The translations under genes and the position numbers were made by a program. Below the pieces are notes generated by a model. That model was not told the origin of the DNA. It searched no databases and was given only the letters and a program-made list of their open reading frames with translations. Shown piece after piece: positions 31,260 through 47,661 of a DNA stretch of 64,000 nt. Position 1 is the first letter of the stretch. Each line of letters begins with the position of its first letter. The stretch is from positions 186,001 to 250,000 of the forward strand of contig NZ_BCNT01000004.1 in NCBI RefSeq assembly GCF_001544075.1, given 5' to 3'. The stretch comes from Comamonas terrae (GTDB lineage Bacteria > Pseudomonadota > Gammaproteobacteria > Burkholderiales > Burkholderiaceae_C).

Positions 31260-31760
31260 ATGCCCCGCTCTGCCAACTCCCCCAAGTCCGGCCCCAGAAC
31301 CACGGCCCGCGCTGCCGCCGCACAGGATGGCGCGACCGAACCGGTGGATTCGTCTTTCCTGCGCACCCTGGTCGGCTACAACGCCCGCCGGGCGGCGCTG
31401 TCCATCATCGAAGTCTTCATGCAGCGCATGAGCGCCTACGACCTCAAGGTGGTGGAGTTCTCCATGCTGTCCCTGGTGGGGCACAACCCCGGCATCACCT
31501 CGCGCCAGCTGTGCGCCACGCTGGGCGTGCTGCCGCCCAACCTCGTGGGCCTGATCGCCGCGCTGGAGCGCCGGGGCCTGATCAAGCGCTTGCCCCATCC
31601 CAGCGACGGCCGGGCCATGGGCATACACCTGACGGCCGCCGGCACCGAGCTGATGCAGGAGGCCGAACAGACCGTCGCGCAGCTGGAGGTGGAGGCCACC
31701 TCGCGCCTGACGGACGCCGAGCGCAAGACACTGATCCGGCTGCTGCAGAAGATCTACTGA
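31260..31760 (+). CDS. MarR-family regulator (CouR-like position)
   Basis: A 166-residue winged-helix regulator. A poorly structured 30-residue lead is followed by dimerisation helices, the recognition helix region (PGITSRQLCATLGVLPPNLV) and the wing (RLPHPSDGRAMGIHLT), both typical of MarR. Such repressors often bind CoA thioesters or phenolic acids and control adjacent degradation genes. The neighbouring genes match the hydroxycinnamate set controlled by CouR in Rhodococcus, so a hydroxycinnamoyl-CoA ligand is my inference. Its 3' end overlaps the convergent amidohydrolase gene by 7 bp. Confidence 0.9.
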   Translation: MPRSANSPKSGPRTTARAAAAQDGATEPVDSSFLRTLVGYNARRAALSIIEVFMQRMSAYDLKVVEFSMLSLVGHNPGITSRQLCATLGVLPPNLVGLIAALERRGLIKRLPHPSDGRAMGIHLTAAGTELMQEAEQTVAQLEVEATSRLTDAERKTLIRLLQKIY

Positions 31761-32629
31761 GGCCGGGTCCCGAAGCCCAGCAGCCGCACCGCGTTGCCCT
31801 TGAGGATGCCGGGCATGACCTCGGGCTTGAAGCCCGCCTCCTGGAAGTCCTTCATCCAGCGTTCGGGCGTGATCAGCGGGTAGTCGCTGCCGAACAGCAC
31901 GCGGTCCTTCAGCAGGGTGTTGGCGTACTGGACCAGCTGCTTGGGGAAATACTTGGGGCTCCAGCCCGACAGGTCGATCCAGACATTGGGCTTGTGCGTG
32001 GCCACGCTCAGGGCCTCGTCCTGCCACGGAAAGCTCGGATGGGCCATGACGATCTGCATGTCGGGAAAGTCGATGGCCACATCGTCCAGGTGCATGGGGT
32101 TGCTGTATTCCAGCCGCAGGCCGCCGCCGCAGCGCATGCCGCTGCCGATGCCGCTGTGCCCGGTGTGGAAGATGGCCGGCAGCTTGTGCTCGGCAATCAC
32201 TTCGTAGATGGGCCAGGCCATGCGGTCGTAGGGGTGGTAGCCTTGCACCGTGGGGTGGAACTTGAAGCCCTTGATGCCTTCCTGCTCGATCAGGCGGCGC
32301 GCCTCGCGCGCGCCCATCTTTCCCTTGTGCGGGTCGATGCTGGCGAAGGCCACCATCATGTCGCTGTTGGCGCGCGCGGCCTCGGCGATCTCCTCGTTGG
32401 GAATGCGGCGGCGGCCCAGCTGGGACTCGCTGTCCACCGTGAACATGACCAGGCCGATCTTCTGCTCGCGGTAATAGGCCACGGTCTCGGCGATGGTGGG
32501 GCGGCGGCCGTTCTTGAAGTACTTGTCGGCCGCGCGGTCGTATTCCTCGCCATAGTTGTCGAACGGGTTCCAGCAACTGACTTCGGCATGGGTGTGGATG
32601 TCGATGGCAATCAGGTTCTCGTGGTCCAT
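31754..32629 (-). CDS. Amidohydrolase family 2 protein (CouO-like candidate)
   Basis: A 291-residue metal-dependent hydrolase of the TIM-barrel amidohydrolase 2 family. The metal site starts with AIDIHTHAEVS (His-X-His) and continues with GFKFHPTVQG, IFHTGHSG and the terminal Asp in LFGSDYPLI. In the actinobacterial cou pathway a protein of this family (CouO) cleaves the beta-ketoacyl-CoA made from a hydroxycinnamate. Here the gene is divergent from the crotonase-ligase-dehydrogenase unit, with 80 bp between starts, so the same role is probable. Decarboxylase activity, known for other family members, is the alternative. Confidence 0.85.
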   Translation of the reverse strand: MDHENLIAIDIHTHAEVSCWNPFDNYGEEYDRAADKYFKNGRRPTIAETVAYYREQKIGLVMFTVDSESQLGRRRIPNEEIAEAARANSDMMVAFASIDPHKGKMGAREARRLIEQEGIKGFKFHPTVQGYHPYDRMAWPIYEVIAEHKLPAIFHTGHSGIGSGMRCGGGLRLEYSNPMHLDDVAIDFPDMQIVMAHPSFPWQDEALSVATHKPNVWIDLSGWSPKYFPKQLVQYANTLLKDRVLFGSDYPLITPERWMKDFQEAGFKPEVMPGILKGNAVRLLGFGTRPQ

Positions 32630-32709
32630 GCAGCGCTCCTTGGTTCGGGTAAGTCCCGGTGAAATTGGTTATAAATAATAATCAAAATTCGCTCATCGAG
32701 AAAGCCTGT

Positions 32710-33492
32710 ATGAACTACCAAGACATCCATTTCGAACTGCGCGGCGACCACTCCGAAGTCGCCGTGGTCCGCCTGGCGCGCACCGCCAAGCGCAATGCCC
32801 TGAGCGACGGCCTGATCCTGGCGCTGCGCGATCTCTTCGAGCAGATGCCCGCCAGCGTGCGCGCGGCCGTCATCGACGGCGAGGGCCCGCATTTCTGCGC
32901 CGGCCTGGACCTGTCCGAATTGCAGGAGCGCGACGCGGGCCAGGGCCTGCACCACTCGCGCATGTGGCATGCGGCGCTGGACCGCGTGCAATACGGCCCC
33001 GTGCCCGTGATCGCCGCGCTGCACGGCGCCGTGGTGGGCGGCGGGCTGGAGCTGGCCAGCGCCTGCCATATCCGCGTGGCCGATGCCTCCACCTTCTACG
33101 CGCTGCCCGAAGGCTCGCGCGGCATCTTCGTGGGCGGCGGCGGCGCGGTGCGCATTCCCAAGCTCATCGGCGTGGCGCGCATGACGGACATGATGCTCAC
33201 CGGCCGCGTCTACGACGCGCAGGAAGGCGAGCGCGTGGGCCTGGCCCAGTACCTCGTGCCCGAGGGCCAGGCCTTCGACAAGGCGCTGGAGCTGGCACTG
33301 CGCGTGGCGCAGAACGCACCTCTGACCAACTACGCGCTGATGCACGCGCTGCCGCGCATTGCCGAGCAGCCGGCCGACCAGGGCCTGTTCACCGAAGCCA
33401 TGATGGCCGCCATCGCCCAGAGCGCGCCCGAGGCCAAGCAGCGCCTTGCCGATTTCCTCGAAGGCCGCGCAGCCAAAGTCCGCAAGAACTGA
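32710..33492 (+). CDS. Enoyl-CoA hydratase/isomerase family protein (CouM-like candidate)
   Basis: A 260-residue crotonase. The oxyanion-hole segments are DGEGPHFCAGLDLSEL and ALHGAVVGGGLELASAC, the latter with the family Gly-Gly pair; a Glu in LPEGSRGIFVGGGG is the likely acid/base residue. It is not close to the feruloyl-CoA hydratase-lyase Ech by its N-terminus, so plain hydration of the side chain fits better. It is first in the unit crotonase-ligase-SDR-M20-Bug. AAAGCC precedes the ATG and no strong ribosome site is seen. Confidence 0.9.
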   Translation: MNYQDIHFELRGDHSEVAVVRLARTAKRNALSDGLILALRDLFEQMPASVRAAVIDGEGPHFCAGLDLSELQERDAGQGLHHSRMWHAALDRVQYGPVPVIAALHGAVVGGGLELASACHIRVADASTFYALPEGSRGIFVGGGGAVRIPKLIGVARMTDMMLTGRVYDAQEGERVGLAQYLVPEGQAFDKALELALRVAQNAPLTNYALMHALPRIAEQPADQGLFTEAMMAAIAQSAPEAKQRLADFLEGRAAKVRKN

Positions 33493-33547
33493 AACTACCA
33501 AAAACATAGCTGCCAGCGCCTTGCCCACAAGCGACTGCGGCAGATTG
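33493..33547. repeat. R1 dispersed hairpin repeat, copy 3
   Basis: AAACTACCAAAAACATAGCT, then GCCAGCGCCTTG and CAAGCGACTGCGGCAG. It fills the gap between the crotonase stop codon and the ligase ribosome site, within one presumed operon. Confidence 0.6.
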
Positions 33548-33559
33548 GAGACAAAACCC

Positions 33560-35434
33560 ATGAGCGACACCACCACGGATGCGTCCCGCTACCGTCCCAT
33601 GCCTTTCGGCGTCACCCGCGTCAGCCTGCGCGATGGGGCGCCGGGCGTGCGCTACCTGTCGGCCGATTTGCCCCTGGGCGCGTATGCGCGCCGCGTGACG
33701 GACTATCTGCTGCACTGGGCCGAGGCGGCGCCCGAACGCAGCTTTCTGGCCCGCCGCGAGGCGCTGGCCGACGGCCGCACCGGGGACTGGCAGCACGTGA
33801 GCTACGGCCAGGCGCTGGAGGCCGCGCGCAGCATCGGCCAGGCCCTGCTCGACCGCGGCCTGACGGCCGAGCGGCCCGTGCTGGTGCTCAGCGAGAATTC
33901 GCTCGAGCATGCGCTGCTGGCGCTGGGCTGCATCTATGCGGGCGTGCCGTACTGCCCGGTGTCGCCGGCCTATGCCACGGTGAGCCAGGATTTCGACAAG
34001 CTGCGCCATGCGCTGGATACGCTCACGCCGGGCCTGGTGTTCGCCGCCGACGGCGCGCGCTATGGACGGGCCATCGAAGCCACGGTGGCGCCGGATGTGG
34101 AGGTGGTGCTGGCGCAGGGCGCGATCGCGGGCCGCGCCACCACGCCGTTCATCAGCCTGCGCGCCACGCCGGCCACCGCCGCGGTCGATGCGGCCATGCA
34201 TGCCACGGGCCCGGGCACCATCGTCAAGTTCCTGTTCACCAGCGGCTCCACCAAGCTGCCCAAGCCCGTGATCAACACGCAGCGCATGTGGTGCGCCAAC
34301 CTGCAGCAGATCACGCTGTCGCTGCCGGTGCTGGCCCAGGAGCCCCCGGTGCTGGTGGACTGGCTGCCCTGGAACCACACCTTCGGCAGCAACCACAACT
34401 TCGGCCTCGTGCTCATGCACGGCGGCACGCTGTACATCGACGACGGCAAGCCCACGGCGGCGCTGATCGGCGAGACGCTGCGCAATCTGCGCGAGATCGC
34501 GCCCACGGTCTACTTCAACGTGCCTGCGGGCTTCGAGATGATCGCCGAGGCCATGAAGACCGATGCACAGCTGCGCGACACGCTGCTGTCGCGCCTGCAG
34601 ATGTTCTTCTACTCGGGCGCCGGCCTGTCCCAGCCCGTGTGGGACAGCCTGCATGCCACGCAGGAATCTGCCATCGGCCAGCGCATCGTCATGGCCACGG
34701 GCCTGGGCATGACGGAATCGGCGCCGTCGGCGCTGTTCGTCAACAGCGCCGAGGTGCGCGCCGGCCATGTCGGCGTGCCCGTGCCGGGCATGACGCTCAA
34801 GCTCGTCGATGTGGACGGCAAGACCGAGGTGCGCTACCGCGGCCCCAATGTGACGCCCGGCTACTGGCGCTCCGATGCCGCCACGCGCGACGCCTTCGAC
34901 GAGGAGGGCTATCTGATCACCGGCGATGCGGTGAAGTGGATCGACGACAGCGACATCCACCGCGGCCTGGCCTTCGACGGCCGCATCGCCGAGGACTTCA
35001 AGCTCGCCACGGGCACTTTCGTGAGCGTGGGGCCGCTGCGCGCACGCATCGTCGCGGCCGGCGCGCCCTACATCCAGGACGTGGTGCTCACGGGCCTGAA
35101 CCAGAAGGAGATCGGGGCGCTGGTGTTTCCCGCAGCCGCCGCGTGCCGCGAGGCCAGCCGCCTGCCGGCCGATGCGCCCTGGACCGAGGTGCTGGCCAGC
35201 GCCGGCGTGCGCCAGCGCATCCAGGCCGTGCTGAACCAGCTCGCCCGCGATGCCACGGGCAGCGCCAGCCGCGTGGCGCGGGCGCTGCTGATGGCCGAGC
35301 CGCCCTCGCTGGACAAGGGCGAAATCACCGACAAGGGCTCCCTCAACCAGCGCGCCGTGCTCAGGCACCGCGAGGCGCTGGTGGCGGCGCTGCACGAGGG
35401 CACGGCGCCCGGCATTTTGCTGGCCCAGGCCTGA
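33560..35434 (+). CDS. Feruloyl-CoA synthase-like ligase (CouL-like candidate)
   Basis: A 624-residue AMP-forming acyl-CoA ligase. FLFTSGSTKLPKPVINTQ is the ATP-phosphate loop (A3) and GLGMTESAP the A5 motif; GYLITGDAVKWID gives the adenine/ribose Asp. The opening (PFGVTRVSLRDG) and length fit feruloyl-CoA synthases rather than the shorter 4-coumarate ligases. It would activate a hydroxycinnamic acid to its CoA thioester. GGAGACAAAA lies upstream of the start. It is in one unit with a crotonase and an SDR dehydrogenase, giving a hydration-oxidation route. Confidence 0.9.
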   Translation: MSDTTTDASRYRPMPFGVTRVSLRDGAPGVRYLSADLPLGAYARRVTDYLLHWAEAAPERSFLARREALADGRTGDWQHVSYGQALEAARSIGQALLDRGLTAERPVLVLSENSLEHALLALGCIYAGVPYCPVSPAYATVSQDFDKLRHALDTLTPGLVFAADGARYGRAIEATVAPDVEVVLAQGAIAGRATTPFISLRATPATAAVDAAMHATGPGTIVKFLFTSGSTKLPKPVINTQRMWCANLQQITLSLPVLAQEPPVLVDWLPWNHTFGSNHNFGLVLMHGGTLYIDDGKPTAALIGETLRNLREIAPTVYFNVPAGFEMIAEAMKTDAQLRDTLLSRLQMFFYSGAGLSQPVWDSLHATQESAIGQRIVMATGLGMTESAPSALFVNSAEVRAGHVGVPVPGMTLKLVDVDGKTEVRYRGPNVTPGYWRSDAATRDAFDEEGYLITGDAVKWIDDSDIHRGLAFDGRIAEDFKLATGTFVSVGPLRARIVAAGAPYIQDVVLTGLNQKEIGALVFPAAAACREASRLPADAPWTEVLASAGVRQRIQAVLNQLARDATGSASRVARALLMAEPPSLDKGEITDKGSLNQRAVLRHREALVAALHEGTAPGILLAQA

Positions 35435-35456
35435 ACCATATTCCAAGGAGACAGAT

Positions 35457-36221
35457 ATGCAGATTCAAGGACAGAGCGCACTGGTCACGGGCGGCGCATC
35501 GGGCCTGGGCGAGGCCACGGCGCGCGCACTGGCACGCCTGGGCGCCCGTGTGGCGGTGCTGGACCGCAATGCCGAACAGGCCGCCAGGGTGGCCGCGGAC
35601 ATCGGCGGCGTGGCCTGCGCCTGCGACATCACCGATGCCGCCAGCGTGGCCGCCGCGCTGGAGCAGGCCGCGGTCGCCCACGGCCCGGCACGCATTCTGA
35701 TGAACGTGGCGGGCATAGGCAGCGCCAAGCGCATCGTGCAGCGCGACGGCAGCGCTGCGCCGCTCGAGGACTTCGCGCGCGTCGTGAACATCAACCTCAT
35801 CGGCACATACAACGTGAGCCGCCTGTTCGCTGCGGCATGCAGCCGGCTGGAGGCTCTCGACAACGGGGAGCGCGGCGTGATGCTGTTCACGGCCTCGGTG
35901 GCGGCCTTCGACGGCCAGGTGGGCCAGCAGGCCTACAGCGCCTCCAAGGCGGGCCTGGCCGGCATGACGCTGCCCATGGCGCGCGACCTGGCCCAGCATG
36001 CGATACGCGTATGCACCATCGCGCCCGGCCTGTTCGCCACGCCACTGATGCAGGAGCTGCCCGAGGCCGTGCAGCAGTCGCTGGCCGCGAGCATCCCCTT
36101 CCCGCCGCGCCTGGGCCGGCCCGAGGAGTTTGCCGAGCTCGCCTGCCACATCGTGACCAACGGCCACCTGAACGGCGAGGTGATCCGCCTGGACGGCGCG
36201 TTGCGCATGGCTCCGCGCTGA
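35457..36221 (+). CDS. SDR 3-hydroxyacyl-CoA dehydrogenase-like (CouN-like candidate)
   Basis: A 254-residue short-chain dehydrogenase. TGGASGLGEATARAL at 10-24 is the NAD-binding Gly motif, NVAGIG the structural NAG-like motif, and the catalytic set is Ser in LFTASVAAF, Tyr and Lys in QQAYSASKAG. It most resembles type II 3-hydroxyacyl-CoA dehydrogenases (HSD17B10). In the pathway proposed here it would oxidise the beta-hydroxyl produced by the crotonase. AAGGAGACA precedes the ATG, 22 bp after the ligase stop. Confidence 0.9.
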   Translation: MQIQGQSALVTGGASGLGEATARALARLGARVAVLDRNAEQAARVAADIGGVACACDITDAASVAAALEQAAVAHGPARILMNVAGIGSAKRIVQRDGSAAPLEDFARVVNINLIGTYNVSRLFAAACSRLEALDNGERGVMLFTASVAAFDGQVGQQAYSASKAGLAGMTLPMARDLAQHAIRVCTIAPGLFATPLMQELPEAVQQSLAASIPFPPRLGRPEEFAELACHIVTNGHLNGEVIRLDGALRMAPR

Positions 36222-36250
36222 GTTGCCAATCCGAACGAACGGAGACCCGC

Positions 36251-37582
36251 ATGCCTGCTCTTTCCAAGCTCACGCTCGTCGCCTGCGCCGCCTGGGCGGC
36301 CTGCACCCTGGTGCCACCTGCTGCTGCGCAGACGGCCGCATCCGGGCGCCTGGCCCCGCTGGTGGACGAGATATACCCCCGGCTTGAAGCGCTCTACCAG
36401 GACCTCCATGCGCACCCCGAGCTGGGCTTCCAGGAAACGCGCACCGCCGCCGCGCTGGCCGCGCAGATGCGGGCGCTGGGCTTCGAGGTGACCGAAGGCG
36501 TGGGCCGCACCGGCGTGGTGGCGCTCTACCGCAATGGCAGCGGCCCGACGGTGCTGGTGCGCACCGAACTCGATGCGCTGCCGATGGAGGAGAAGACCGG
36601 CCTGCCCTATGCCAGCCGGGCCAGGGCGCAATGGAACGGCAGCGAGACCTTCGTGGCCCACAGCTGCGGCCATGACATACACATGGCCAGCTGGGTCGGC
36701 ACGGCGCAAGCGCTGCTCGCGCTCAAGGACCAGTGGCATGGCACGCTGATGTTCATCGGCCAGCCGGCGGAGGAGTCGGTGGGCGGAGCCAAGGCCATGG
36801 TGGACGACGGCCTCTTCAAGCGCTTTCCCAAGCCGGACTTCGCCTTCGCGCTGCACACAGATCCCATGGCCTACGGCTACGTGGGCTATCGCGCGGGGCC
36901 GATGACCTCGGCCGCCGACGGCCTGGAAATCACATTCAAGGGCCGCGGAGGCCATGGCTCGGCACCGCATGCGACGATCGACCCGATTGCCATCGGCGCG
37001 CATTTCGTGACCGATGTGCAGACCGTGGTCAGTCGCGAGAAGAACCCGTTCGAATTCGGTGTGGTCACCATCGGTGCGTTCCAGGCCGGCACTGTCGGCA
37101 ACATCATTCCCGCCGAAGCCAGGCTCAGCGGCACCATCCGAAGCTACGATCCCGCGGTGCGCCGGAAGCTGATCGACGGCGTACGCCGGACGGCGCTGGC
37201 ATCGGCCGCCAGTGCCGGCGCACCGGAACCCGAGCTGCATGTGGGCGAGGGCGGTGTCGGCGCCGTGGTCAACGATGCCGCGCTGGTGCAGCGCACGGTG
37301 GCCGCGCTGCAGGCGCAGCTGGGCGCCGACCATGTGGTGCAGGTGCCGCCCATTACCGCGAGCGAGGACTTCTCCGTGTTGGGCGAGAACGGCATTCCCT
37401 CGATGTTCTTTGTCGTCGGCGTGAGCGATCCCAAGGACGTGGCCGCGTCGAAGCAGCCCGGCGGCAAGCCGCTGCCCTTCAACCACTCGCCGTTCTTCGC
37501 GCCCGTGCCCGAACCCTCGATCAAGGTCGGCGTGCGGGCCATGACGACGGCGGTGCTGTCGGCCATGGGAGCGAAGCACTGA
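36251..37582 (+). CDS. Exported M20D amidohydrolase (ILR1/aminoacylase-like)
   Basis: A 443-residue metal-dependent amidohydrolase with a signal peptide (KLTLVACAAWAACTLVPPAA). LHAHPELGFQETRTA and HSCGHDIHMASW are the M20D signatures, the latter with metal His/Cys ligands; GQPAEESVGGAKAMV holds the catalytic Glu pair. Family members hydrolyse N-acyl amino acids, including auxin-amino acid conjugates. Being periplasmic and in the same unit as a hydroxycinnamate-type ligase, it may free aromatic acids from amide conjugates before uptake; this is inference. Confidence 0.88.
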   Translation: MPALSKLTLVACAAWAACTLVPPAAAQTAASGRLAPLVDEIYPRLEALYQDLHAHPELGFQETRTAAALAAQMRALGFEVTEGVGRTGVVALYRNGSGPTVLVRTELDALPMEEKTGLPYASRARAQWNGSETFVAHSCGHDIHMASWVGTAQALLALKDQWHGTLMFIGQPAEESVGGAKAMVDDGLFKRFPKPDFAFALHTDPMAYGYVGYRAGPMTSAADGLEITFKGRGGHGSAPHATIDPIAIGAHFVTDVQTVVSREKNPFEFGVVTIGAFQAGTVGNIIPAEARLSGTIRSYDPAVRRKLIDGVRRTALASAASAGAPEPELHVGEGGVGAVVNDAALVQRTVAALQAQLGADHVVQVPPITASEDFSVLGENGIPSMFFVVGVSDPKDVAASKQPGGKPLPFNHSPFFAPVPEPSIKVGVRAMTTAVLSAMGAKH

Positions 37583-37667
37583 GAAGGCCGAGCCAGGCGC
37601 CCGCCATCGCCCTCCCGAGGTGCACGCATGCAGCCTGAAAGTCCTTTCCCGCCACCAGGAGACATCC

Positions 37668-38675
37668 ATGCCAGTGCAACGCCGCCACTTCATCCAGACC
37701 CTGGGTAGCACCATCTGCGGCACGGCAGCCCTGGGCGCGTTCGCGCCCCTCGAGGCCGGGGCCCAGCAGGCGCTGGAGCAGGTCAAGATCATGTACGGCT
37801 TTCCGGCCGGCAGCGCGGGCGACAGCGTGGCGCGCCGCGTGGCCGAGAAGCTGGGCGGCACGGCCTACAGCAGGAATGCCGGCTATGTGGAAAACCGGCC
37901 GGGAGCCGGCGGCCGCATCGCGGTGGAGACGCTGAAGCACTCGGCCGCCGACGGCTCGGTGCTGGCGCTGGCGCCCGTGTCGGCCTTCTCGGTCTATCCG
38001 CACATCTATCCGCGGCTCGGCTACAAGGCCGAGGATGCGGCGCCGGTGTCCATGGGCGCCGTCATGCTGCACGGCCTGGCCGTGGGGCCGGCCGTGCCGG
38101 CCGAGGTCAGGACGCTCAAGGACTTTCTCGCCTGGGCCAGGGCCAACCCGGAAAAGGCCAGCTACGGCACGCCGGGATCCGGCTCCATGCCGCATCTGCT
38201 GGGTGCCCTGCTGGGCCTGCGCGCGGGCGTGCCGCTCAACCATGTGCCCTACCGCGGCACCGTGCCCAGCATCACCGATCTCGTGGGCGGCCAGGTTGCC
38301 GCGGCCGTGAACCCCAGCGGCGACTATCTGCAATACCTGAAGGCGGGCCGCGTGCGCGTGCTGGCCCTGTCGGGCAGGAAGCGCTCTCCCTACCTGCCCG
38401 ATGTGCCCACGTTTGCCGAGCTTGGCTATCCCGACGTGACGTCGGAGGAGTGGTTCGGCTTCTATGCCCCGGCCCGGGTGCCGTCGGCCGTGCTGGCCCA
38501 TGCCAACGCGGCCATCACGGCCGCGCTCAAGGACAGGTCGGTCATCGATTCGCTGGCGCTGGTGGGGCTGGTGGCGCGCGGCAGCACGCCGCAGGAGATG
38601 GCGGCCGACCAGAAGGCCGAGTTCGAGCGCTGGGGGCCGCTGGTCAGGCAGATCGGCTTCACGGCCGAGTCCTGA
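37668..38675 (+). CDS. Bug-family (TctC-like) periplasmic receptor 3
   Basis: A 335-residue receptor. A short leader with QRRHFIQTLGSTICG suggests Tat- or Sec-export, cleavage near AGAQQ. The ligand loops are MYGFPAGSAGDSVARRVAE and VENRPGAGGRIAVETL, and HVPYRGTVPSITDLVGGQ is the third block. The first loop has AGSAGDS where most Bug proteins have PGGxxD, so the ligand pocket may differ. It is the last gene of the ligase/SDR/M20 unit, and would bind the acid that the ligase activates. Confidence 0.88.
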   Translation: MPVQRRHFIQTLGSTICGTAALGAFAPLEAGAQQALEQVKIMYGFPAGSAGDSVARRVAEKLGGTAYSRNAGYVENRPGAGGRIAVETLKHSAADGSVLALAPVSAFSVYPHIYPRLGYKAEDAAPVSMGAVMLHGLAVGPAVPAEVRTLKDFLAWARANPEKASYGTPGSGSMPHLLGALLGLRAGVPLNHVPYRGTVPSITDLVGGQVAAAVNPSGDYLQYLKAGRVRVLALSGRKRSPYLPDVPTFAELGYPDVTSEEWFGFYAPARVPSAVLAHANAAITAALKDRSVIDSLALVGLVARGSTPQEMAADQKAEFERWGPLVRQIGFTAES

Positions 38676-38702: not shown

Positions 38703-39287
38703 TCAGTCCATGGCGGCCACGGCCGCCTTGTAGATGCTCTGGCGGGGCTGGGCCATGAGGCGGCGCAGCATGGGCTCGAACTCCGAGATCGGCAGCGTCT
38801 CGCCCCTGGGGTCGAAGGCCGGGTTGTCGTAGAGTTCGCAGAACTCGGCCGTGCGCTCGTAGTGCGGGTGGTCCCTGAACTGCGCGCGCATGTCGCGGTC
38901 CAGCCCGATGTGGTGAAAGAAGTAGTGGCCCTGGAAGATGCCGTGGTGCTTGACCATCCAGTGGTTGGCCTCGCTCACGAAGGGCTGGACAATGGCCGCC
39001 GCGATGTCGGGATGGTTGAACGAGCCCAGCGTGTCGCCGATGTCGTGCAGCAGTGCGCAGACCACGTATTCCTCGTCGCGCCCGTCGCGCAGCGCGCGCG
39101 TGGCGGTCTGCAGAGAGTGCGTGTAGCGGTCCACCGGAAAGCCGCCGTAGTCGCCTTCCAGCAGCTTCAGATGCGCCATGACGCGGTCCGGCAGCCCTTG
39201 CGCGAACTGCGCGAATTCGCCGCCTATCAATCGCCAGTCGTCGCGCGTGCTGTCCTGCATGCGGATGAAGTTCGCCCGTGCATTCAT
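38703..39287 (-). CDS. HD-domain protein, MIOX/PhnZ-like
   Basis: A 194-residue protein with a divalent-metal HD core: His57 in RYTHSLQT, His81-Asp82 in ALLHDIGD, and further His at 92, 109 and 114-115 (ANHWMVKHH). The arrangement, with a Tyr-Gly-Gly loop ahead of the first His, recalls HD-domain mixed-valent di-iron oxygenases such as PhnZ, TmpB and inositol oxygenase rather than phosphohydrolases. The substrate is unknown. It is 114 bp downstream of boxA on the same strand and may be read with it. Confidence 0.72.
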   Translation of the reverse strand: MNARANFIRMQDSTRDDWRLIGGEFAQFAQGLPDRVMAHLKLLEGDYGGFPVDRYTHSLQTATRALRDGRDEEYVVCALLHDIGDTLGSFNHPDIAAAIVQPFVSEANHWMVKHHGIFQGHYFFHHIGLDRDMRAQFRDHPHYERTAEFCELYDNPAFDPRGETLPISEFEPMLRRLMAQPRQSIYKAAVAAMD

Positions 39288-39401: not shown

Positions 39402-40703
39402 TCAATAGGTCTCCAGGTGCAGGCGTCCCTCGCGCTTGAGGCGCTGGCCCAGGGCTTCCCATTCGAGGCCGGCCTGCTGCGCCACATCGCGCAGGGCCAG
39501 CAGCACGCCTTCCTCCATGCTCTTGAGGCCGCAGACGTAGATGTAGGTGTTGTCGTCGCCCAGCAGCCGGGCCAGGTCCACCGCACGTTCGCGGATGGCA
39601 TCCTGCACGTAGCGGCGCGGCTGGCCGGGCACGCGCGAGAAGGCCAGGTTGTTGTCCATGAAGTCCTTGGGCAGGCTTTGCAGTGGGCCGAAGTAGGGCA
39701 GCTCCTGGGGCGTGCGCGCGCCGAAGAACAGCATGAGCTTGCCGCCGTCGAACTTGCCGCTCCTGCGCAGGCGCCGGCGCCATTCGGTCATGGCGCGCAT
39801 GGGCGCGCTGCCGGTGCCGGTGCAGATCATGACGATGTGCGAGCGCGGATGGTTGGGCATGAGGAAGGAAGTGCCGAACGGGCCGATGACCTGCACCTTG
39901 TCGCCCACCTGCAGGTCGCACAGATAGTTGCTGGCCACGCCGCGCACGGGCCGGCCTTCGTGGTCCTGGGTGACGCGCTTGACGGTCAGCGCCACGTTGT
40001 TGTAGCCGGGGCGTTCGCCGTTGCGCGCGCTGGCCACCGAATACTGGCGCGCGACATGGGGCTTGCCGCTGGCATCCAGGCCCGGCGGGATCACGGCAAT
40101 CGACTGGCCTTCGAGCACGGGAAACGGCATGGCGCCGAAGTCCAGCACGATGTGGTGGGTCTCGCTGGCGAAGCCTGCCTCCGTGCAGTTGAGATTGCCG
40201 GTCACGGTGGCCGTGACCGGATTCCTGGGGCCGTAGAGGTTGGAATAGGCATGGGCTGCGGACCAGGGCGGCACGGTGGCCCCGTAGGCGGCCGCCCTGA
40301 AGGCCGGTTCGGCGGCTGCGTTGCTGGCGCTGGCGCTGCTCGCCAAGGCGGCCGCCGCAATCACGGCCTGGGCCTGGGTCAGGTCCGCGGGTTCCTGCTG
40401 CGCGGCGGCCAGTCGCTCGGCCGGCAACTCCTCGGGCAGGCTTTCCCAGCCGTACTGCTGCGCCAGCGTGTAGGCCTGCAGGGCCGGCACCTTGCGCCAG
40501 TTGTCGATGGCGCCGGTGGGGCAGGGGGAGATGCAGTCCATGCAGCCATTGCATTTGTCGGCCATGACCACGTAGTTGGTGTCGTCATGCGTGATGGCAT
40601 CGACCGGGCAGGTGGCTTCGCAGGTGTTGCAGCGAATGCAGATTTCCGGATCGATCAGATGCTGGTTGAGGATGCCGTTTTCAATCAACGTGGTGGTGGT
40701 CAT
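39402..40703 (-). CDS. boxA: Benzoyl-CoA epoxidase reductase subunit BoxA
   Basis: A 433-residue iron-sulfur flavoprotein that passes electrons from NADPH to BoxB for epoxidation of benzoyl-CoA. The N-terminus holds two 4Fe-4S ferredoxin motifs, [12 protein letters not shown] and [12 protein letters not shown]. An Ala-rich linker at about 95-140 leads to an FNR-like reductase with [11 protein letters not shown] (FAD) and [12 protein letters not shown] (NADPH). The domain order is that of BoxA. It is the third gene of boxC-boxB-boxA, 70 bp after boxB. Confidence 0.96.
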
Positions 40704-40773
40704 GTTCTTCTCCCAACAAATATCGCCATGCCTTGGTGCGCGACCCTTGGAATCGGCGCAGCCGCCCAGGGGA

Positions 40774-42201
40774 TTAATTGAAGCGGACGTACTCGAAATC
40801 GACAGGCTGGCGATTGATGCCCATGACCGGCGGGGCAATCCAGCCCGCGAACTTGCCAGGCTCCAGGCACCGGCCCATGAGCGAGGCCACGAAGGTGCGG
40901 TCCTCGTCGGTGGGCAGCCATTCCTTCTTGCGCAGCTCCCATTCCTGCTCGCTCACGGGGCGGCCGTCGGGGCTGATGCGCACGCCGGCCAGCGCGCCGA
41001 TCTGGCGGTTGAAGGCCTTGTGCGGCACCGTGAGGCGGAAATCGATGCCGGCCTTTTCCATCACCTTGTTCCAGCGGCCCACGCCGGCATTGCTGTCCTT
41101 GATGTAGTCGTCGCGCAGCACCTCGTTCAGGGCGTTGAGCATGGGCACGTCCTTTTCCTGCAGCCTGCCGTCCACCACTTCCAGCACCTTGTACTGCTGG
41201 TCATGCAGCGCATGGTCGTCGCTGCGCTTGCCTTCCTCGTAGCGGCCCTTGAGGCCCGAGCTGTAGAAGGTGGCGGCATTGCTGGACTGGTCGGCGCCGA
41301 ACAGGTCGATGGTCACGCTGTAGTGGAAGTTCAGGTAGCGCTGGATGGTGGGCAGGTCGATCACGCCGGCCGCGCGCAGCCGGCTCACATCGTCGGTGCC
41401 GAGCTCGTTCATGACCTGGCAGGTGCGGGCCAGCACGCGCGAGACGCCGGATTCGCCCACGAACATGTGGTGGGCCTCCTCGGTCAGCATGAACTTGGTG
41501 GTGCGCGCCAAGGGGTCGAAGGCGCTTTCGGCCAGGGCGGCCAGCTGGAACTTGCCGTCGCGGTCGGTGAAGTAGGTGAACATGAAGAAGCTCAGCCAGT
41601 CGGGCGTCTTCTCGTTGAAGGCGCCCAGGATGCGCGGATTGTTCTCGTCGCCCGACTGGCGCTCGAGCAGTGCCTCCGCCTCCTCGCGGCCGTCGCGGCC
41701 GAAGTGCTTGTGCAGCAGGTAGACCATGGCCCACAGGTGGCGGCCTTCCTCCACATTGACCTGGAACAGGTTGCGCAGGTCGTACAGCGAAGGCGCGGTC
41801 AGGCCCAGGTGGCGCTGCTGCTCCACTGACGCGGGCTCGGTGTCGCCCTGGGTGACGATGATGCGGCGCAGGTTGGCGCGGTGCTCGCCGGGCACGTCCT
41901 GCCAGGCCTTCTCGCCCCTGTGGTCGCCGAAGTGGATGGTGCGGTTTTCCTCCGCGGGGTTGAGGAAGATACCCCAGCGGTAGTCGCGCATCTTCACGTA
42001 GCCGAACTGGGCCCAGCCCTGGGGGTCGACGCTGACCGCGGTGCGCAGGTAGACGTCGTGGTGGGTGGAGCCCTCGGGGCCCACGTCGTCCCACCACCTG
42101 ATGAAGTTGGGCTGCCAGCTCTCCAGCGCGCGCTGCAGGGTGCGGTCGCTGCTCAGGTCCACGTTGTTGGGAATCTTCTGGCTGTAGTCGATGCTGCTCA
42201 T
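40774..42201 (-). CDS. boxB: Benzoyl-CoA 2,3-epoxidase oxygenase subunit BoxB
   Basis: A 475-residue non-haem di-iron oxygenase that makes 2,3-epoxybenzoyl-CoA with O2 and electrons from Box[21 protein letters not shown] and [14 protein letters not shown] carry the two Glu-Glu-X-X-His iron motifs. Length is that of BoxB. It lies 25 bp after boxC on the same strand. The start MSSIDYSQ follows an AGGAGATA ribosome site. Confidence 0.97.
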
Positions 42202-42226
42202 GGGATATCTCCTGGATGCGGTGGGG

Positions 42227-43885
42227 TCAAACGCGATTGAAATCAAAGCCGGCTTTTTGTCCGGTGCCGTAAAGCTTTAAGGCGCCTTTTTCGCCCACGG
42301 CATTGGGGCGGTTGAAGATCCAGTTCTGCCAGGCCGACAGGCGTCCGAAGATGCGCGTGACCATGTTTTCCTTGCCGGCAAAGCGCAGGTTGGCCTCGAG
42401 GCCCGTGAGCGCATCGGGCGACATGGCGGCGCGCTCCTCGATGGCGATGCGGATCTCGTCCTCCCAGTCGATATCGTCGAGCGCCGCGGTGACCAGGCCC
42501 AGCTGCTGGGCCGCATCGCCGTCCAGCGCCCGGCCCACGGCGGCGCGCGCGGCTTCCAGCGGCGCGGCTTCTTCGTAGAAGCGGCGCTGCAGGCGGCTCT
42601 GGTCGTTGACCAGGGGCAGCAGGCCGAAATTGAATTCGTCCAGCACCAGGGTGGGCTGGCGCCCGGGCTCGTCGGGCAGCACCAGCATGTAGGCGCGGTC
42701 GGCGCAGAAGGCCAGCTCGGCCAGCACGCCGGCAAAGCAGGAGCCGGGCTCGATCAGCGCGAACAGCGAGCGCGAGGACACGTCCAGGCGCGCCAGCGTG
42801 CGGCGCAGCAGGCCTATGGTCTCGCGCACCAGCCAGTGGTCCCGGTGGGCCAGCAGGACCTGGTCGGCGGCCAGCACGGCGGCCGCATCGCCCTCGGTCC
42901 TGAGGATCCAGGTGCCTATGTCCGGCTCGTTGGTGCGCAGGTGCAGGATGGCGTCGTCCAGTTCGCGGCCCATGGCCAGCGGCCACCAGGCGGCGCCGGC
43001 CTGCGCGATGGCGTCGATGTCCCCGGGCTGCGGGCCCTGCGGCGCCCTGACCGTGACGGTGGCGCTGCGCTTGGCGCGGTCGATCTCCACGGCCACATGC
43101 CGATAGCCCAGGCTGGCGTCGCCGAGTTCGCGCTCGATGCGGGTCAGCGCAATGCCCTTGGCCGAGGCGGGGCGCTGGCTGGTTGCGGCCAGCTTCTGCG
43201 CGTGCTGCTCCACGGTCGCGGCAAATTGCGCGGGCTTGGCCACCGCATCGACCAGGCGCCAGTCCACGGCGCGCTGGCCGCGCACGCCTTCCACGCTGGT
43301 GCAGAAGATGTCGGCCAGGTCGTGGCGCACATGGCGCTTGTCGGTCACGCGCGTCAGCCCGCCCGTGCCGGGCAGCACGCCCAGCAGCGGCACCTCGGGC
43401 AGGGAGACGGAGGAGGAGCGGTCGTCGATCAGCACGATCTCGTCGCAGGCCAGGGCCAGCTCATAGCCGCCGCCCGCGCAGGCGCCGTTGACTGCGGCGA
43501 CGAACTTGAGGCCGTCGTGCCTGGAGCTGTCCTCGATGCCGTTGCGGGTCTCGTTCGTGAACTTGCAGAAGTTCACCTTCCAGGCATGCGAGGAAACGCC
43601 GAGCATGAAGATGTTGGCGCCCGAGCAGAAGATGCGCTCCTTGCCGCTGGTGACGATGACGCTTTTGACCTCGGGATGCTCGAAGCGGATGCGGTTGAGC
43701 GCATCGTGCAGCTCGATGTCCACGCCCAGGTCGTAGCTGTTGAGCTTGAGCTTGTAGCCGGGGCGTATGCCGCCGTCCTCGGCGATGTCCAGCTTCATGC
43801 GTGCAACCGGCCCGTCCACTTCAAACGACCAATGGCGGTACTGGCTGGGTTCGGTGCGGTAGTCGACGAGGGATTGCTGCTGCAT
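42227..43885 (-). CDS. boxC: 2,3-epoxybenzoyl-CoA dihydrolase BoxC
   Basis: A 552-residue crotonase-family ring-opening enzyme that hydrolyses the epoxide to 3,4-dehydroadipyl-CoA semialdehyde and formate. The first half shows the crotonase oxyanion region ERIFCSGANIFML and CAGGGYELALACDEIVLID; the second half is a more distant crotonase copy, as usual for BoxC. It is first of the boxCBA run. The region upstream carries a GCACAATTATGCA motif shared with the divergent boxR promoter. The start MQQQSLVDYR is the only one that leaves the N-terminus intact. Confidence 0.97.
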   Translation of the reverse strand: MQQQSLVDYRTEPSQYRHWSFEVDGPVARMKLDIAEDGGIRPGYKLKLNSYDLGVDIELHDALNRIRFEHPEVKSVIVTSGKERIFCSGANIFMLGVSSHAWKVNFCKFTNETRNGIEDSSRHDGLKFVAAVNGACAGGGYELALACDEIVLIDDRSSSVSLPEVPLLGVLPGTGGLTRVTDKRHVRHDLADIFCTSVEGVRGQRAVDWRLVDAVAKPAQFAATVEQHAQKLAATSQRPASAKGIALTRIERELGDASLGYRHVAVEIDRAKRSATVTVRAPQGPQPGDIDAIAQAGAAWWPLAMGRELDDAILHLRTNEPDIGTWILRTEGDAAAVLAADQVLLAHRDHWLVRETIGLLRRTLARLDVSSRSLFALIEPGSCFAGVLAELAFCADRAYMLVLPDEPGRQPTLVLDEFNFGLLPLVNDQSRLQRRFYEEAAPLEAARAAVGRALDGDAAQQLGLVTAALDDIDWEDEIRIAIEERAAMSPDALTGLEANLRFAGKENMVTRIFGRLSAWQNWIFNRPNAVGEKGALKLYGTGQKAGFDFNRV

Positions 43886-43933
43886 GGCGGGCCTCTTGAA
43901 GATGAAAAATAGTGCAGTTGCTATCGGGTGTAG

Positions 43934-43946
43934 GCACAATTATGCA
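43934..43946. promoter_or_regulatory. Candidate BoxR operator upstream of boxC
   Basis: GCACAATTATGCA differs at only two central positions from GCACAATATTGCA at 45490, in the boxR/boxD control region. On the minus strand it includes CATAAT, a fair -10 element, 53-58 bp from the boxC start. Further TGCA-type words follow at 43960-43990. Binding by BoxR is inference. Confidence 0.55.
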
Positions 43947-44282: not shown

Positions 44283-44474
44283 TCAGGCGGCGGCTTCGGG
44301 ATGGCGCTGCAGCCACTGCGCGAGCTGCTGGCGGTACTGCCGCATTTCCTCGGCATAGCAGTCGTACACGCAGGGGTCGCAGCCGCTTTCGCAGCATTCG
44401 TTGGGCTGCGGCGCTTCGGGCGGAACGGGGCGCGGATCGTCGGCCATGCCGGGCTGGAGGGTGTTCATGGTCAT
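44283..44474 (-). CDS. Small Cys-rich protein, oxidoreductase-like domain
   Basis: A 63-residue protein with CCESGCDPCVYDCY, a four- to five-cysteine cluster that matches the short 'oxidoreductase-like' N-terminal domain found alone or ahead of reductases; it may hold a metal or Fe-S centre. The ATG overlaps the boxR stop codon by 4 bp (ATGA), so the two are coupled and probably co-transcribed. A later Met (third residue) is an alternative start. It is too short for most gene finders, but the Cys motif and the coupling argue that it is real. Confidence 0.7.
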   Translation of the reverse strand: MTMNTLQPGMADDPRPVPPEAPQPNECCESGCDPCVYDCYAEEMRQYRQQLAQWLQRHPEAAA

Positions 44475-45385
44475 GCCGCCGTGATCCGGCGCAGCTCCTC
44501 GAAGCTTTGCTGCAGCGTCTTGCCGCTGGTGTCGAGCCGGTGGTCGGCCTTGGAATAGAAGGCGGCGCGGCCGTCGAGGATGCGCCGCAGGTCGTCCATG
44601 GCTTCGGGGTTGGCGGCCATGGGGCGCGTGTCGCCCTGGGCGATGACGCGGCCCATGTGTTCCTCGGGATCGGCCTGCAGCCAGACCGTGGTGCAGTGGG
44701 TCAGCAGCTCGTTGAAGGTGGCGGGGTCGGAAACGATGCCGCCCGGCGTGGCGATCACCACGTCGCTGTAGATCTGCACGGCTTCCTCGAGCGCGCGGCG
44801 CTCGTAGCGGCGGTAGGCGCCGGCGCCGTAGAGGTCGTAGATCTCGCGCACGCTGCAGCCGGCCACGCGTTCGATCTCCTGGTTGAGTTCCAGGAACGGC
44901 ACCTGCAGCTGCTCGGCCAGCATGCGGCCCAGCGTGGACTTGCCGGCGCCGCGCAGGCCGATCAGCGCGATGCGCGAATGGCGGTGGGCATCGCCGCCGG
45001 GCGCCGTGCCCAGGATTTCCCCGGCCGCCATGCGCACGCGCTTGAGGTCTTCCTCGCTGCGGTTTTCCAGCAGCTCGCGCAGCAGCAGCCATTCGGCGCT
45101 GGAGGTGGTCACATCGCCGAGCAGTTCGGCCATGGAGCACTGCAGGGCCTGTGCGATCTGGTGCAGCACGAGGATGGAGACATTGCCCGTCCCGTATTCC
45201 AGATTGGCCAGGTGGCGCTCGGAAACCTGTGCCGTGACGGCCAGATTGCGGCGGGTCAGCCCCCGGCGCGCGCGCAGCTCGCGCACGCGCTCTCCCAGCG
45301 CCTGCAGCACCAGGCTTTTGCCGGCTTCGGCCGGGGTGGCCGCCCCCTCGCTGCCGGCCTCCGATGCAATCTCAAACTGATCCAT
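44471..45385 (-). CDS. boxR: Transcriptional repressor BoxR (HTH plus shikimate kinase-like domain)
   Basis: A 304-residue two-domain regulator. Residues about 35-90 are a Cro/CI-type HTH (RRGLTRRNLAVTAQVSERHL). From about 135 there is a shikimate-kinase-like domain with Walker A GLRGAGKSTLGRML that senses benzoyl-CoA in the BoxR/BzdR family. It represses the box genes until benzoyl-CoA accumulates. The start MDQFEIAS lies 54 bp from the GCAATATATTGC palindrome in the control region shared with the divergent unit. Confidence 0.96.
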   Translation of the reverse strand: MDQFEIASEAGSEGAATPAEAGKSLVLQALGERVRELRARRGLTRRNLAVTAQVSERHLANLEYGTGNVSILVLHQIAQALQCSMAELLGDVTTSSAEWLLLRELLENRSEEDLKRVRMAAGEILGTAPGGDAHRHSRIALIGLRGAGKSTLGRMLAEQLQVPFLELNQEIERVAGCSVREIYDLYGAGAYRRYERRALEEAVQIYSDVVIATPGGIVSDPATFNELLTHCTTVWLQADPEEHMGRVIAQGDTRPMAANPEAMDDLRRILDGRAAFYSKADHRLDTSGKTLQQSFEELRRITAA

Positions 45386-45438
45386 AAAGCTCCCCAAGAC
45401 GGCGTGAATCATAAACAGTCGGGGTTAACACCAGTCAT

Positions 45439-46107: not shown

Positions 46108-47661
46108 ATGACGGAACTCCTTGCCAACCATGTCTGCGGCCGCTGGCAGGCCGGCACCGGCCCGGGCAGCGTGCTGCGCGACCCCGTGCGGGGCAGCGCA
46201 CTGGTGCGCGTGGACGCCACCGGGCTGGATCTGCCGGCCGCCTTTGACTATGCCCGCGAGACCGGCGGCGCGGCCCTGCGCGCACTGAGCTATGCCCAGC
46301 GCGCCAAACTGCTGGCCGATGCGGCCGGCGTGCTGCAGGCGGGCCGCGATGCCTATTACGCAATTTCCACGGCCAACTCGGGCACCGTGAAGAGCGACAC
46401 GGCCGTCGACGTGGACGGCGCCATCTACACGCTGGGCCAGTACGCCAGATGGGGCGCGGCGCTGGGCGATGCCCGCCATCTGGCCGACGGCGAGGCGGTG
46501 GCGCTGGCCCGCGACGGCGTGTTCCAGTCCCGGCACATCCAGGTGCCGGCGCGCGGCGTGGCGCTGTTCATCAACGCCTTCAACTTCCCAGCCTGGGGGC
46601 TGTGGGAAAAGGCCGCGCCCGCGCTGCTGTCGGGCGTGCCGGTCATCGTCAAGCCCGCCACGGCCACGGCCTGGCTCACGCAGCGCATGGTCCGCGACGT
46701 GGTGGAGGCCGGCATTGTGCCGCCCGGCGCGCTGTCGGTGATCTGCGGCAGCGCGGCCGGACTCATGGACCAGCTGCAGCCCTGGGACATGGTCTCCTTC
46801 ACGGGCTCGGCCGAGACCGCTGCCGCGATCCGCGGCCATGCAGCCGTGGCGCGCCACGCGGTGCGCAGCAATATCGAGGCCGACAGCATCAACAGCGCGC
46901 TGCTGCTGCCCGGCCACGGGCCCGACAGCGAGGCCGTGCGCCTGCTGGCGCGCGAAGTGGCGCGCGAGATGACGGTCAAGTCCGGCCAGAAGTGCACGGC
47001 CATACGCCGCGTCTTCGTGCCCGGGGCGCTGTACGACGCCGTGGCCCAGGCGATTGGCGCACAGCTGGCCGAGGTCGCCGTGGGCGATCCGCGCAGCGAG
47101 GGCGTGCGCATGGGCTCTCTGGTCAGCCGCGAGCAGTACGACAGCGTGCAGAAGGGCCTGGCCGGGCTGATGGCGCACACGGATGTGCTGCACGACGGCC
47201 GCAGGCGCGCCCTGGTGGATGCGGATCCGGCCGTGGCCGCCTGTGCCCGGCCCGTGCTGCTGGGCACGCGCAGCCCCGATGCGGCGTCCCTGGTGCACGA
47301 CATGGAAGTCTTCGGGCCGGTGGCCACGCTCATGCCCTACCGCGACCTCGCGCACGGGCTGGCGCTGGCCCGCCGCGGCCAGGGTTCGCTGGTGGCCTCG
47401 CTGTACGGCGAAGACCCGGCAGCGCTGGCGGCCGCGGCCGCCGACCTGGCCGCCAGCCACGGCCGCGTGCATGTGGTCACGCCCGAGGTGGGCAGGACCC
47501 ATACGGGCCACGGCAATGTGATGCCGCAGTCCCAGCACGGCGGGCCCGGGCGCGCCGGCGGCGGCAGCGAGCTGGGCGGCCTGCGCGCGCTGGACTTCTA
47601 CCACCGCAAGGCGGCCGTGCAGGCCAGCCCTGCCGTGCTGCAGGCCCTCGTCCCGGCCTGA
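46108..47661 (+). CDS. boxD: 3,4-dehydroadipyl-CoA semialdehyde dehydrogenase BoxD
   Basis: A 517-residue aldehyde dehydrogenase related to the PaaZ N-terminal domain. It oxidises the BoxC product to 3,4-dehydroadipyl-CoA. FINAFNFPAWGLWEKAAPAL and VIVKPATATAWLTQ form the NADP site, SFTGSAETA the Gly motif, and the catalytic Cys is in VKSGQKCTAIRR. The lack of a MaoC-type hydratase domain distinguishes it from PaaZ. It is 37 bp after the DUF4863 gene and 76 bp before the ligase gene. Confidence 0.94.
   Translation: MTELLANHVCGRWQAGTGPGSVLRDPVRGSALVRVDATGLDLPAAFDYARETGGAALRALSYAQRAKLLADAAGVLQAGRDAYYAISTANSGTVKSDTAVDVDGAIYTLGQYARWGAALGDARHLADGEAVALARDGVFQSRHIQVPARGVALFINAFNFPAWGLWEKAAPALLSGVPVIVKPATATAWLTQRMVRDVVEAGIVPPGALSVICGSAAGLMDQLQPWDMVSFTGSAETAAAIRGHAAVARHAVRSNIEADSINSALLLPGHGPDSEAVRLLAREVAREMTVKSGQKCTAIRRVFVPGALYDAVAQAIGAQLAEVAVGDPRSEGVRMGSLVSREQYDSVQKGLAGLMAHTDVLHDGRRRALVDADPAVAACARPVLLGTRSPDAASLVHDMEVFGPVATLMPYRDLAHGLALARRGQGSLVASLYGEDPAALAAAAADLAASHGRVHVVTPEVGRTHTGHGNVMPQSQHGGPGRAGGGSELGGLRALDFYHRKAAVQASPAVLQALVPA

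Follow-up and report, generated by a model that had tools for sequence, protein, structure and literature searches.

A gene cluster at positions 31260-38675 of a 64,000-nucleotide stretch of Comamonas terrae DNA (contig NZ_BCNT01000004.1; hereafter the window) most likely encodes a coenzyme A (CoA)-dependent, beta-oxidative deacetylation of cinnamic acids, for example ferulate and p-coumarate, in which a metal-dependent enzyme would hydrolyse the C-C bond. An earlier reading made from the sequence alone (the original prediction) had reported that a MarR regulator, a metal-dependent amidohydrolase, a crotonase, a feruloyl-CoA-synthase-type ligase and an HSD17B10-like short-chain dehydrogenase/reductase (SDR) lie together here. 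Analysis of the open frames confirmed this five-gene observation, each Pfam match lying above its curated cut-off, and placed the five within a run of seven intact genes without internal stops (Table 1); the remaining two, which encode an M20-family amidohydrolase and a TctC/Bug-type binding protein, had gone unnamed. The MarR (+) and Amidohydro_2 (-) genes stand tail to tail with a 7-base overlap, and the amidohydrolase gene, starting at 32629, diverges from a plus-strand run in the order crotonase-ligase-SDR-M20-TctC. What we observed directly was gene content, clade membership, conserved residues, the absence of a hydratase/lyase above its cut-off, a recurring inverted repeat and the co-occurrence of the genes across genomes.

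Every reaction and substrate of the proposed pathway, and its repressor-operator pair, are deduced from sequence. The ligase would form a cinnamoyl-type CoA ester, the crotonase would hydrate it to a beta-hydroxyacyl-CoA, and the SDR would oxidise the latter to a beta-ketoacyl-CoA. The metal-dependent amidohydrolase would then use water to cut the C-C bond of the beta-ketoacyl-CoA, which would release the aromatic acid in free form along with acetyl-CoA. A MarR repressor would act at the inverted repeat between the amidohydrolase and crotonase genes, to be released, probably, by cinnamoyl-type CoA. Pathways of this kind are known, though little charted, and differ from the textbook route, which passes through vanillin.

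The amidohydrolase falls in the CouO/HpeF clade

The window amidohydrolase is 51% identical over its full length (289 residues) to CouO of Rhodococcus wratislaviensis. The latter belongs to a cou cluster (locus L011) whose MarR protein scores 298 bits to 5cyv, the solved CouR of strain RHA1 (PMC4737184; here and below, published work is cited from excerpts of the articles). The names of close relatives of the window protein include Acidovorax, Caldimonas, Rhizobacter and Thiomonas, which points to a betaproteobacterial source of the order Burkholderiales. In its own genome the protein matched only itself at an expectation value (E) <=0.001, and four further Amidohydro_2 proteins there exceed the Pfam cut-off. 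The curated NCBIfam search gave no family for it, nor for four relatives. Residues D10, H12, H14, H155, H197 and D249 are invariant across 33 aligned members of the clade.

Two trees were compared. The first, built by a quick method, held 108 rows (103 amidohydrolases from collected loci, the window protein and the four paralogues of its own genome) and carried a long-branch warning for the paralogues, L009 and L004; the second, built by a careful method and drawn with a midpoint root, held 54 hand-chosen rows of the first, with these sequences removed. In the second tree, 18 further proteobacterial proteins formed one group with the window protein (support 100/98). This group was joined (branch 100/100) by 11 actinobacterial proteins (99/94), of which eight belong to cou-type loci. 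A like group of 20 appeared in the first tree (Shimodaira-Hasegawa-like approximate likelihood ratio test, SH-aLRT, 99), although it included L004 of a Rhodococcus opacus plasmid on its long branch. In both trees the protein falls among those of cou-type and hpe-type loci, and the affinity to CouO that the original prediction had put forward was thereby upheld.

We also labelled the 103 loci by their neighbouring genes, with bit-score limits of our own choice. Thirty-six were of cou type with MaoC and CouN, 19 carried an acetoacetate-CoA-ligase-like protein together with a crotonase, and a feruloyl-CoA-synthase-type ligase was found with a crotonase in nine and without one in four. Hpe-like loci with biotin carboxylase (3), loci with the acetoacetate-CoA-ligase-like protein alone (3) and loci with tannase (2) were also present; the other 27 include L009, which is only 32% identical, and loci truncated by contig ends. 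A Pseudomonas putida plasmid has a 74% relative in an hpe-like run with acetoacetate-CoA ligase, biotin carboxylase and a HAD protein, and the locus of the Rhodococcus sp. JS3073 protein (L005), 99% identical to the L011 amidohydrolase, is hpe-like too. At L109, from a genome (G093) of the same genus as the window, an 87% relative follows an acetoacetate-CoA ligase that exceeds the TIGR01217 cut-off. Because an acetoacetate-CoA ligase would make a beta-ketoacyl-CoA directly, its position next to the amidohydrolase is the best contextual sign that the substrate is a beta-ketoacyl-CoA. Another locus of the genus (L105:4768-9395) unites a tannase/feruloyl esterase, a porin, a TctC protein, a 94% identical amidohydrolase and a MarR protein, and shows no ligase, crotonase or SDR match within about 8 kb of the amidohydrolase. 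In 19 actinobacterial loci (L019, L028, L033 and 16 more), the amidohydrolase is accompanied by a window-type crotonase and a protein resembling acetoacetate-CoA ligase, and nothing there matches the feruloyl-type ligase strongly.

Ligase, crotonase, SDR and regulator fit a beta-oxidative route

The ligase scored 717 bits against NF009232/PRK12582, under the model cut-off of 777, and the second-best match in the genome reached 89 bits. Most of the best solved relatives of the SDR are named 3-hydroxyacyl-CoA dehydrogenase, type II included, and we take the type II relatives to be of the human HSD17B10 type. For the MarR protein the best solved relative was 6c28, named CouR (67.4 bits), presumably the CouR of Rhodopseudomonas palustris, followed by RHA1 CouR (3fm5/5cyv) at 37 bits; by this resemblance it is a probable repressor released by cinnamoyl-type CoA.

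The crotonase matched NF006013/PRK08150 with 426.5 bits (cut-off 232). Its nearest solved structures were 3hin (322 bits), which we take to come from R. palustris, and 4izb (DmdD; 237 bits), and it keeps both catalytic Glu residues, E114 and E134. In DmdD, activities are lost without the corresponding Glu121 and nearly lost without the corresponding Glu141 (PMC3660561). DmdD hydrolyses the thioester as well, and the window crotonase may have such a side activity.

Amidohydrolase and ligase cluster beyond chance

To follow the enzymes across genomes, we surveyed 300 genomes of the order and 120 of the family (one per genus), the window's own genome being included in both. For the ligase and the hydratase/lyase, only some of the candidates picked up at first look in each genome were scored, so that the counts of these two may be low. 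In the order (E cut-offs of 1e-60 for the amidohydrolase, 1e-110 for the ligase and 1e-75 for the hydratase/lyase), the amidohydrolase was found in 15 genomes, the ligase in 36 and the hydratase/lyase in 8. Amidohydrolase and ligase occurred together in 13 of the 15 (hypergeometric p 1e-11, kinship ignored), ligase and hydratase/lyase in five genomes, and amidohydrolase and hydratase/lyase in one. In a genome of the window's genus (G133), which has both the amidohydrolase and the hydratase/lyase, the ligase search at E 1e-110 gave no match.

In the family, with the amidohydrolase at E <=1e-100, the counts were 47 genomes for the amidohydrolase, 73 for the ligase and 3 for the hydratase/lyase; 7 of the 48 amidohydrolase places are listed with one internal stop. 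This family survey of 120 genomes is new here. The clustering of amidohydrolase and ligase exceeds chance, because 45 of the 47 genomes with the amidohydrolase also have the ligase, 38 of them within 10 kb. A gap of 848-1099 bases, with room for a crotonase gene, separates the two in 31 of 40 near pairs, and a single genome (G354) has amidohydrolase, ligase and hydratase/lyase. Closer inspection covered 14 relatives' loci with about 8 kb of flanking sequence, or less where contigs end (L115, L116 and L118): the ligase (at least 500 bits) was present in 10, the crotonase (at least 300) in 9, the SDR (at least 300) in 6 and all three in 5.

A 21-bp inverted repeat recurs at pathway promoters

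We propose, from its sequence, that an inverted repeat in the gap between the diverging amidohydrolase and crotonase genes is the operator of the MarR repressor. The pattern TTGRTTAT-N5-ATAATCAA, with at most two mismatches, occurs at this one place when both strands of the window are scanned, and at none in 100 shuffles of the window. The repeat was then looked for in the 14 relatives' loci and in four plasmid loci. A first scan with the half-sites of the window (TTGATTAT, ATAATCAA) found at least 13 of 16 matching positions with a spacer of 5 in six of the 14 (L105, L106, L108, L110, L112 and L116). A wider pattern, TTGRTTAT-N5-ATAAYCAA, defined after these sites had been seen, gave nine sites in eight of the 14 loci (L111 and L117 being added, L110 having two). 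It was found in none of L107, L109, L113, L114, L115 and L118, in none of the plasmid loci L001, L002, L003 and L006, and at no site in eight rounds of shuffling of the 14 loci.

By gene positions, the sites lie upstream of aligned amidohydrolase or crotonase starts, except in L117, where the site follows MarR and precedes a run of genes headed by TctC. The longest open frames of L106, L110 and L111 extend across a site, and a later start was assumed for them. With the window counted, a MarR protein of the window type is encoded nearby in five of nine repeat-bearing loci. The repeat resembles in type the CouR box, in which five bases separate half-sites of ATTGA (PMC4737184), but is not identical to it. 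That such a 21-bp repeat stands at promoters of the pathway, both in the window and in eight of 14 relatives' loci, is described here for the first time.

The closest precedent is the Agrobacterium fabrum pathway

According to the original prediction, the actinobacterial cou route is made up of these same five families. This claim did not survive comparison with L011. The gene after couO encodes a MaoC-type hydratase (PF01575, 86.4 bits), to which the window crotonase has no BLAST match; the protein presumed to be CouL (L011:1128-2663), for which position and type are the only grounds, is 29% identical to the window ligase over 253 residues and has no PRK12582 match at E 1e-70; and CouN shares 27% identity with the window SDR over 248 residues. 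Because hydratase, ligase and SDR come from other families or subfamilies, the window genes are not an orthologous cou operon, although the CouO step is shared. In common with the RHA1 cou set (CouL, CouM, CouN, CouO and CouR) are a CouO of the amidohydrolase superfamily that gives the aromatic acid, a MarR regulator and the beta-oxidative order of reactions (PMC4737184). The key enzyme and the likely route of the original prediction were thus retained, and its families for the set as a whole were not.

The closest whole precedent is instead the SpG8-1b pathway of A. fabrum C58 (Atu1416, Atu1417, Atu1415, Atu1421 and HcaR), which the full set fits better than cou. That pathway has a feruloyl-CoA synthase, an enoyl-CoA hydratase, a phenylhydroxypropionyl-CoA dehydrogenase, a final C-C-cutting enzyme that gives vanillate and a MarR repressor (PMC7797058). 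By family, the window likewise holds a ligase of feruloyl-CoA synthase type, an enoyl-CoA hydratase and a hydroxyacyl-CoA dehydrogenase in one locus. The two differ in that A. fabrum has the additional Atu1418-1420 for vanillate, and the window has the M20 and TctC genes and box neighbours. A plasmid locus of Rhizobium sp. Q54 contains all five window gene types, with identities of 56% for the SDR, 47% for the ligase, 54% for the crotonase, 35% for MarR (136 residues) and 59% for the amidohydrolase, which is annotated there as 4-hydroxyphenyl-beta-ketoacyl-CoA hydrolase. From this locus we infer that Atu1421 may itself be an amidohydrolase of the window clade. Judged by its sequences, the window locus most probably belongs to the A. 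fabrum pathway type, with a CouO-clade hydrolase.

Three other pathways share single features with it. Strain GD02 degrades acetovanillone by the hpe pathway, whose HpeF, a homologue of CouO (95% identical), is the proposed cutter of hydroxyphenyl-beta-ketopropionyl-CoA (PMC9618137); there, however, the beta-keto acid arises by carboxylation of an acetophenone, whereas in the window it would come from oxidation of cinnamoyl-CoA. Piperine degradation in Rhodococcus ruber No. 14 employs four enzymes (PipU, V, W and X) like those of p-hydroxycinnamate metabolism to shorten an aryl side chain (PMC12753220); set beside the window by description only, it differs in being actinobacterial and in acting on a longer side chain. 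The classical fcs-ech-vdh route uses the same ligase subfamily, PRK12582, but joins it to a p-hydroxycinnamoyl-CoA hydratase/lyase and an aldehyde dehydrogenase. Such a set is seen on a plasmid of Paraburkholderia sp. PREW-6R (L002:3623-8891), where hydratase/lyase (507.9 bits), aldehyde dehydrogenase, ligase and a CouO-clade amidohydrolase stand in a row. P. aromaticivorans grown on ferulate up-regulates ligase, hydratase/lyase and vanillin dehydrogenase (PMC9701309).

Neighbouring genes and downstream routes

Table 1. Features of the window, with positions, strands and supporting scores.
Feature	Position	Strand	Score or context
MarR-family regulator	31260-31760	+	MarR_2 48.1 bits
Amidohydro_2 protein, CouO/HpeF clade; proposed aryl-beta-ketopropionyl-CoA hydrolase	31754-32629	-	Amidohydro_2 175.6 bits
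Inverted repeat TTGGTTAT-AAATA-ATAATCAA (21 bp); candidate operator	32665-32685		between divergent amidohydrolase and crotonase genes
Crotonase; proposed hydratase of cinnamoyl-type CoA	32710-33492 (ATG 32710; longer frame from 32659)	+	ECH_1 147.9 bits
Feruloyl-CoA-synthase-type ligase	33560-35434 (ATG 33560; longer frame from 33446)	+	AMP-binding 167.0 bits
SDR, HSD17B10-like; proposed 3-hydroxyacyl-CoA dehydrogenase	35457-36221	+	adh_short 149.4 bits
M20-family amidohydrolase	36251-37582	+	TIGR01891 272.7 bits (cut-off 153.75)
TctC/Bug-type binding protein	37668-38675	+	TctC 173.6 bits
boxA, boxB, boxC (benzoyl-CoA epoxidation)	39402-43939	-	TIGR03224 726, TIGR03225 909.2, TIGR03222 957.2 bits, all above cut-off
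BoxR-type regulator	44471-45412	-	NF006015 446.7 bits (cut-off 204)
3,4-Dehydroadipyl-CoA semialdehyde dehydrogenase	46108-47661	+	NF008868 875.8 bits (cut-off 444)
Benzoate-CoA ligase	47738-49327	+	TIGR02262 789.8 bits (cut-off 375.25)

The M20 enzyme has an N-terminus that looks by eye like a signal peptide. Its gene had no match in the 14 relatives' loci, and we rejected it as a conserved gene of the pathway; copies of the TctC-type protein were present in L105, L107 and L117 (76%, 56% and 48% identical). To the right of the TctC gene an HD-domain gene (38703-39287) shows a weak, partial match to the model of the phosphonate-degradation HD oxygenase (32.9 bits, cut-off 214.6).

Beyond it lie the box genes, which could take up a benzoate product. 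Their adjacency was rejected as a conserved trait, since boxA, boxB, boxC and BoxR had no match in the 14 relatives' loci, where the sequence extends no further than about 8 kb to either side of the amidohydrolase. Elsewhere the genome encodes PobA (692.8 bits, cut-off 538.7), a protocatechuate 4,5-dioxygenase beta-type protein (NF009903, 586.6 bits, cut-off 317) and five VanA_C matches above cut-off, a domain that is not specific for vanillate. By its gene content the genome should in principle be able to take 4-hydroxybenzoate, perhaps vanillate, and benzoate: the first two would pass to protocatechuate 4,5-cleavage, and benzoate to benzoate-CoA ligase and the box enzymes.

Alternative explanations

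The amidohydrolase might instead be a decarboxylase, like those that act on resorcylate or 5-carboxyvanillate, or some other, unrelated hydrolase; this appears very unlikely. The original prediction had named kinship with resorcylate-type decarboxylases as one finding that would refute it. Decarboxylases do share the Pfam family Amidohydro_2, and solved ones are among the weak matches of the clade profile, but they score 22.6-28.7 bits and match in part, whereas the uncharacterised BB4693 reaches 104 bits; the 51% full-length identity to CouO also speaks against a decarboxylase, the two trees having been sampled without decarboxylase rows. Very unlikely, too, is a non-oxidative lyase route, in which the crotonase would split the ester, once hydrated, into acetyl-CoA and an aromatic aldehyde while amidohydrolase and SDR would be otherwise employed. 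CouA of R. palustris, an enoyl-CoA hydratase, has been assigned to a route other than beta-oxidation (PMC3610893), and its relation to 3hin is the main doubt on the role of the crotonase; in addition, the closest solved relative of the window regulator carries the name CouR. A review, however, calls the R. palustris route beta-oxidative (PMC10458429). The window crotonase scores 76.5 bits against the hydratase/lyase model NF006588, far under its cut-off of 276, and it has the first catalytic Glu, which the lyase-type protein of L002 lacks, as well as the second. No protein of the genome, which is listed as 100% complete, exceeds that cut-off (best 130.8 bits), and the case of the original prediction against the Ech/Vdh route gains by this. 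Its statement that no vanillin dehydrogenase accompanies the set also holds: no aldehyde dehydrogenase is encoded among the seven genes, the rest of the genome not having been searched for one, and the nearest to the run is the box semialdehyde dehydrogenase.

Two readings keep the same chemistry and alter its setting. The main substrate might be cinnamate, or another acid whose ring lacks the 4-hydroxyl group, with benzoate feeding the adjacent benzoate-CoA ligase and box enzymes; we regard this as possible but doubtful. It would account for boxABC, BoxR, the semialdehyde dehydrogenase and benzoate-CoA ligase adjoining genes of cinnamate type, but the box neighbourhood is not shared by the 14 relatives' loci, the genome also encodes PobA and the protocatechuate 4,5-dioxygenase type protein, and the relative of the same genus at L105 pairs the amidohydrolase with a tannase/feruloyl esterase. 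More speculative, and in our view improbable, is a joint reading. In it the amidohydrolase module, and not a vanillin-forming lyase, would be the main partner of the ligase in the family, a cassette for C-C cutting that can be exchanged and is controlled by a recurring operator of MarR type. In this genome the operon would also have acquired two proteins, an M20 enzyme, probably periplasmic, to free cinnamoyl amide conjugates and a binding protein to capture them, and the aromatic acid would pass to the adjacent box genes.

Several observations weigh against the beta-oxidative pathway that we favour. The ligase occurs with neither cutting enzyme in 28 of 73 family genomes and in 18 of 36 order genomes, and thus serves other routes too. 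The amidohydrolase has no ligase within 10 kb in 7 of the 45 family genomes that have both, although contig breaks may explain some; at L109 its neighbour is the acetoacetate-CoA ligase, not the feruloyl-type ligase, which lies about 2.3 Mb away. The L002 row, with its hydratase/lyase, indicates that the amidohydrolase is not confined to oxidative sets. Four of nine repeat-bearing loci (window counted) have no window-type MarR nearby. Finally, Atu1421 of A. fabrum, likened to the window enzyme by description and not by sequence, is termed a beta-ketothiolase in print (PMC7797058).

Significance for Comamonas and its family

For p-coumarate beta-oxidation in Comamonas serinivorans, the enzymes have been called 'still not clear', and the same paper lists a hydratase-lyase and proposes that vanillin is formed from ferulate in that strain (PMC6307125). 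The window genes are candidate enzymes for this published gap. The varied contexts of the clade suggest that the CouO-type enzyme is a movable module, paired with varying ligases, hydratases and dehydrogenases. If the survey holds, many bacteria of the family would avoid free aromatic aldehydes through hydrolysis of a beta-ketoacyl-CoA, which would matter both for annotating genomes and for choosing strains to produce vanillin or vanillate.

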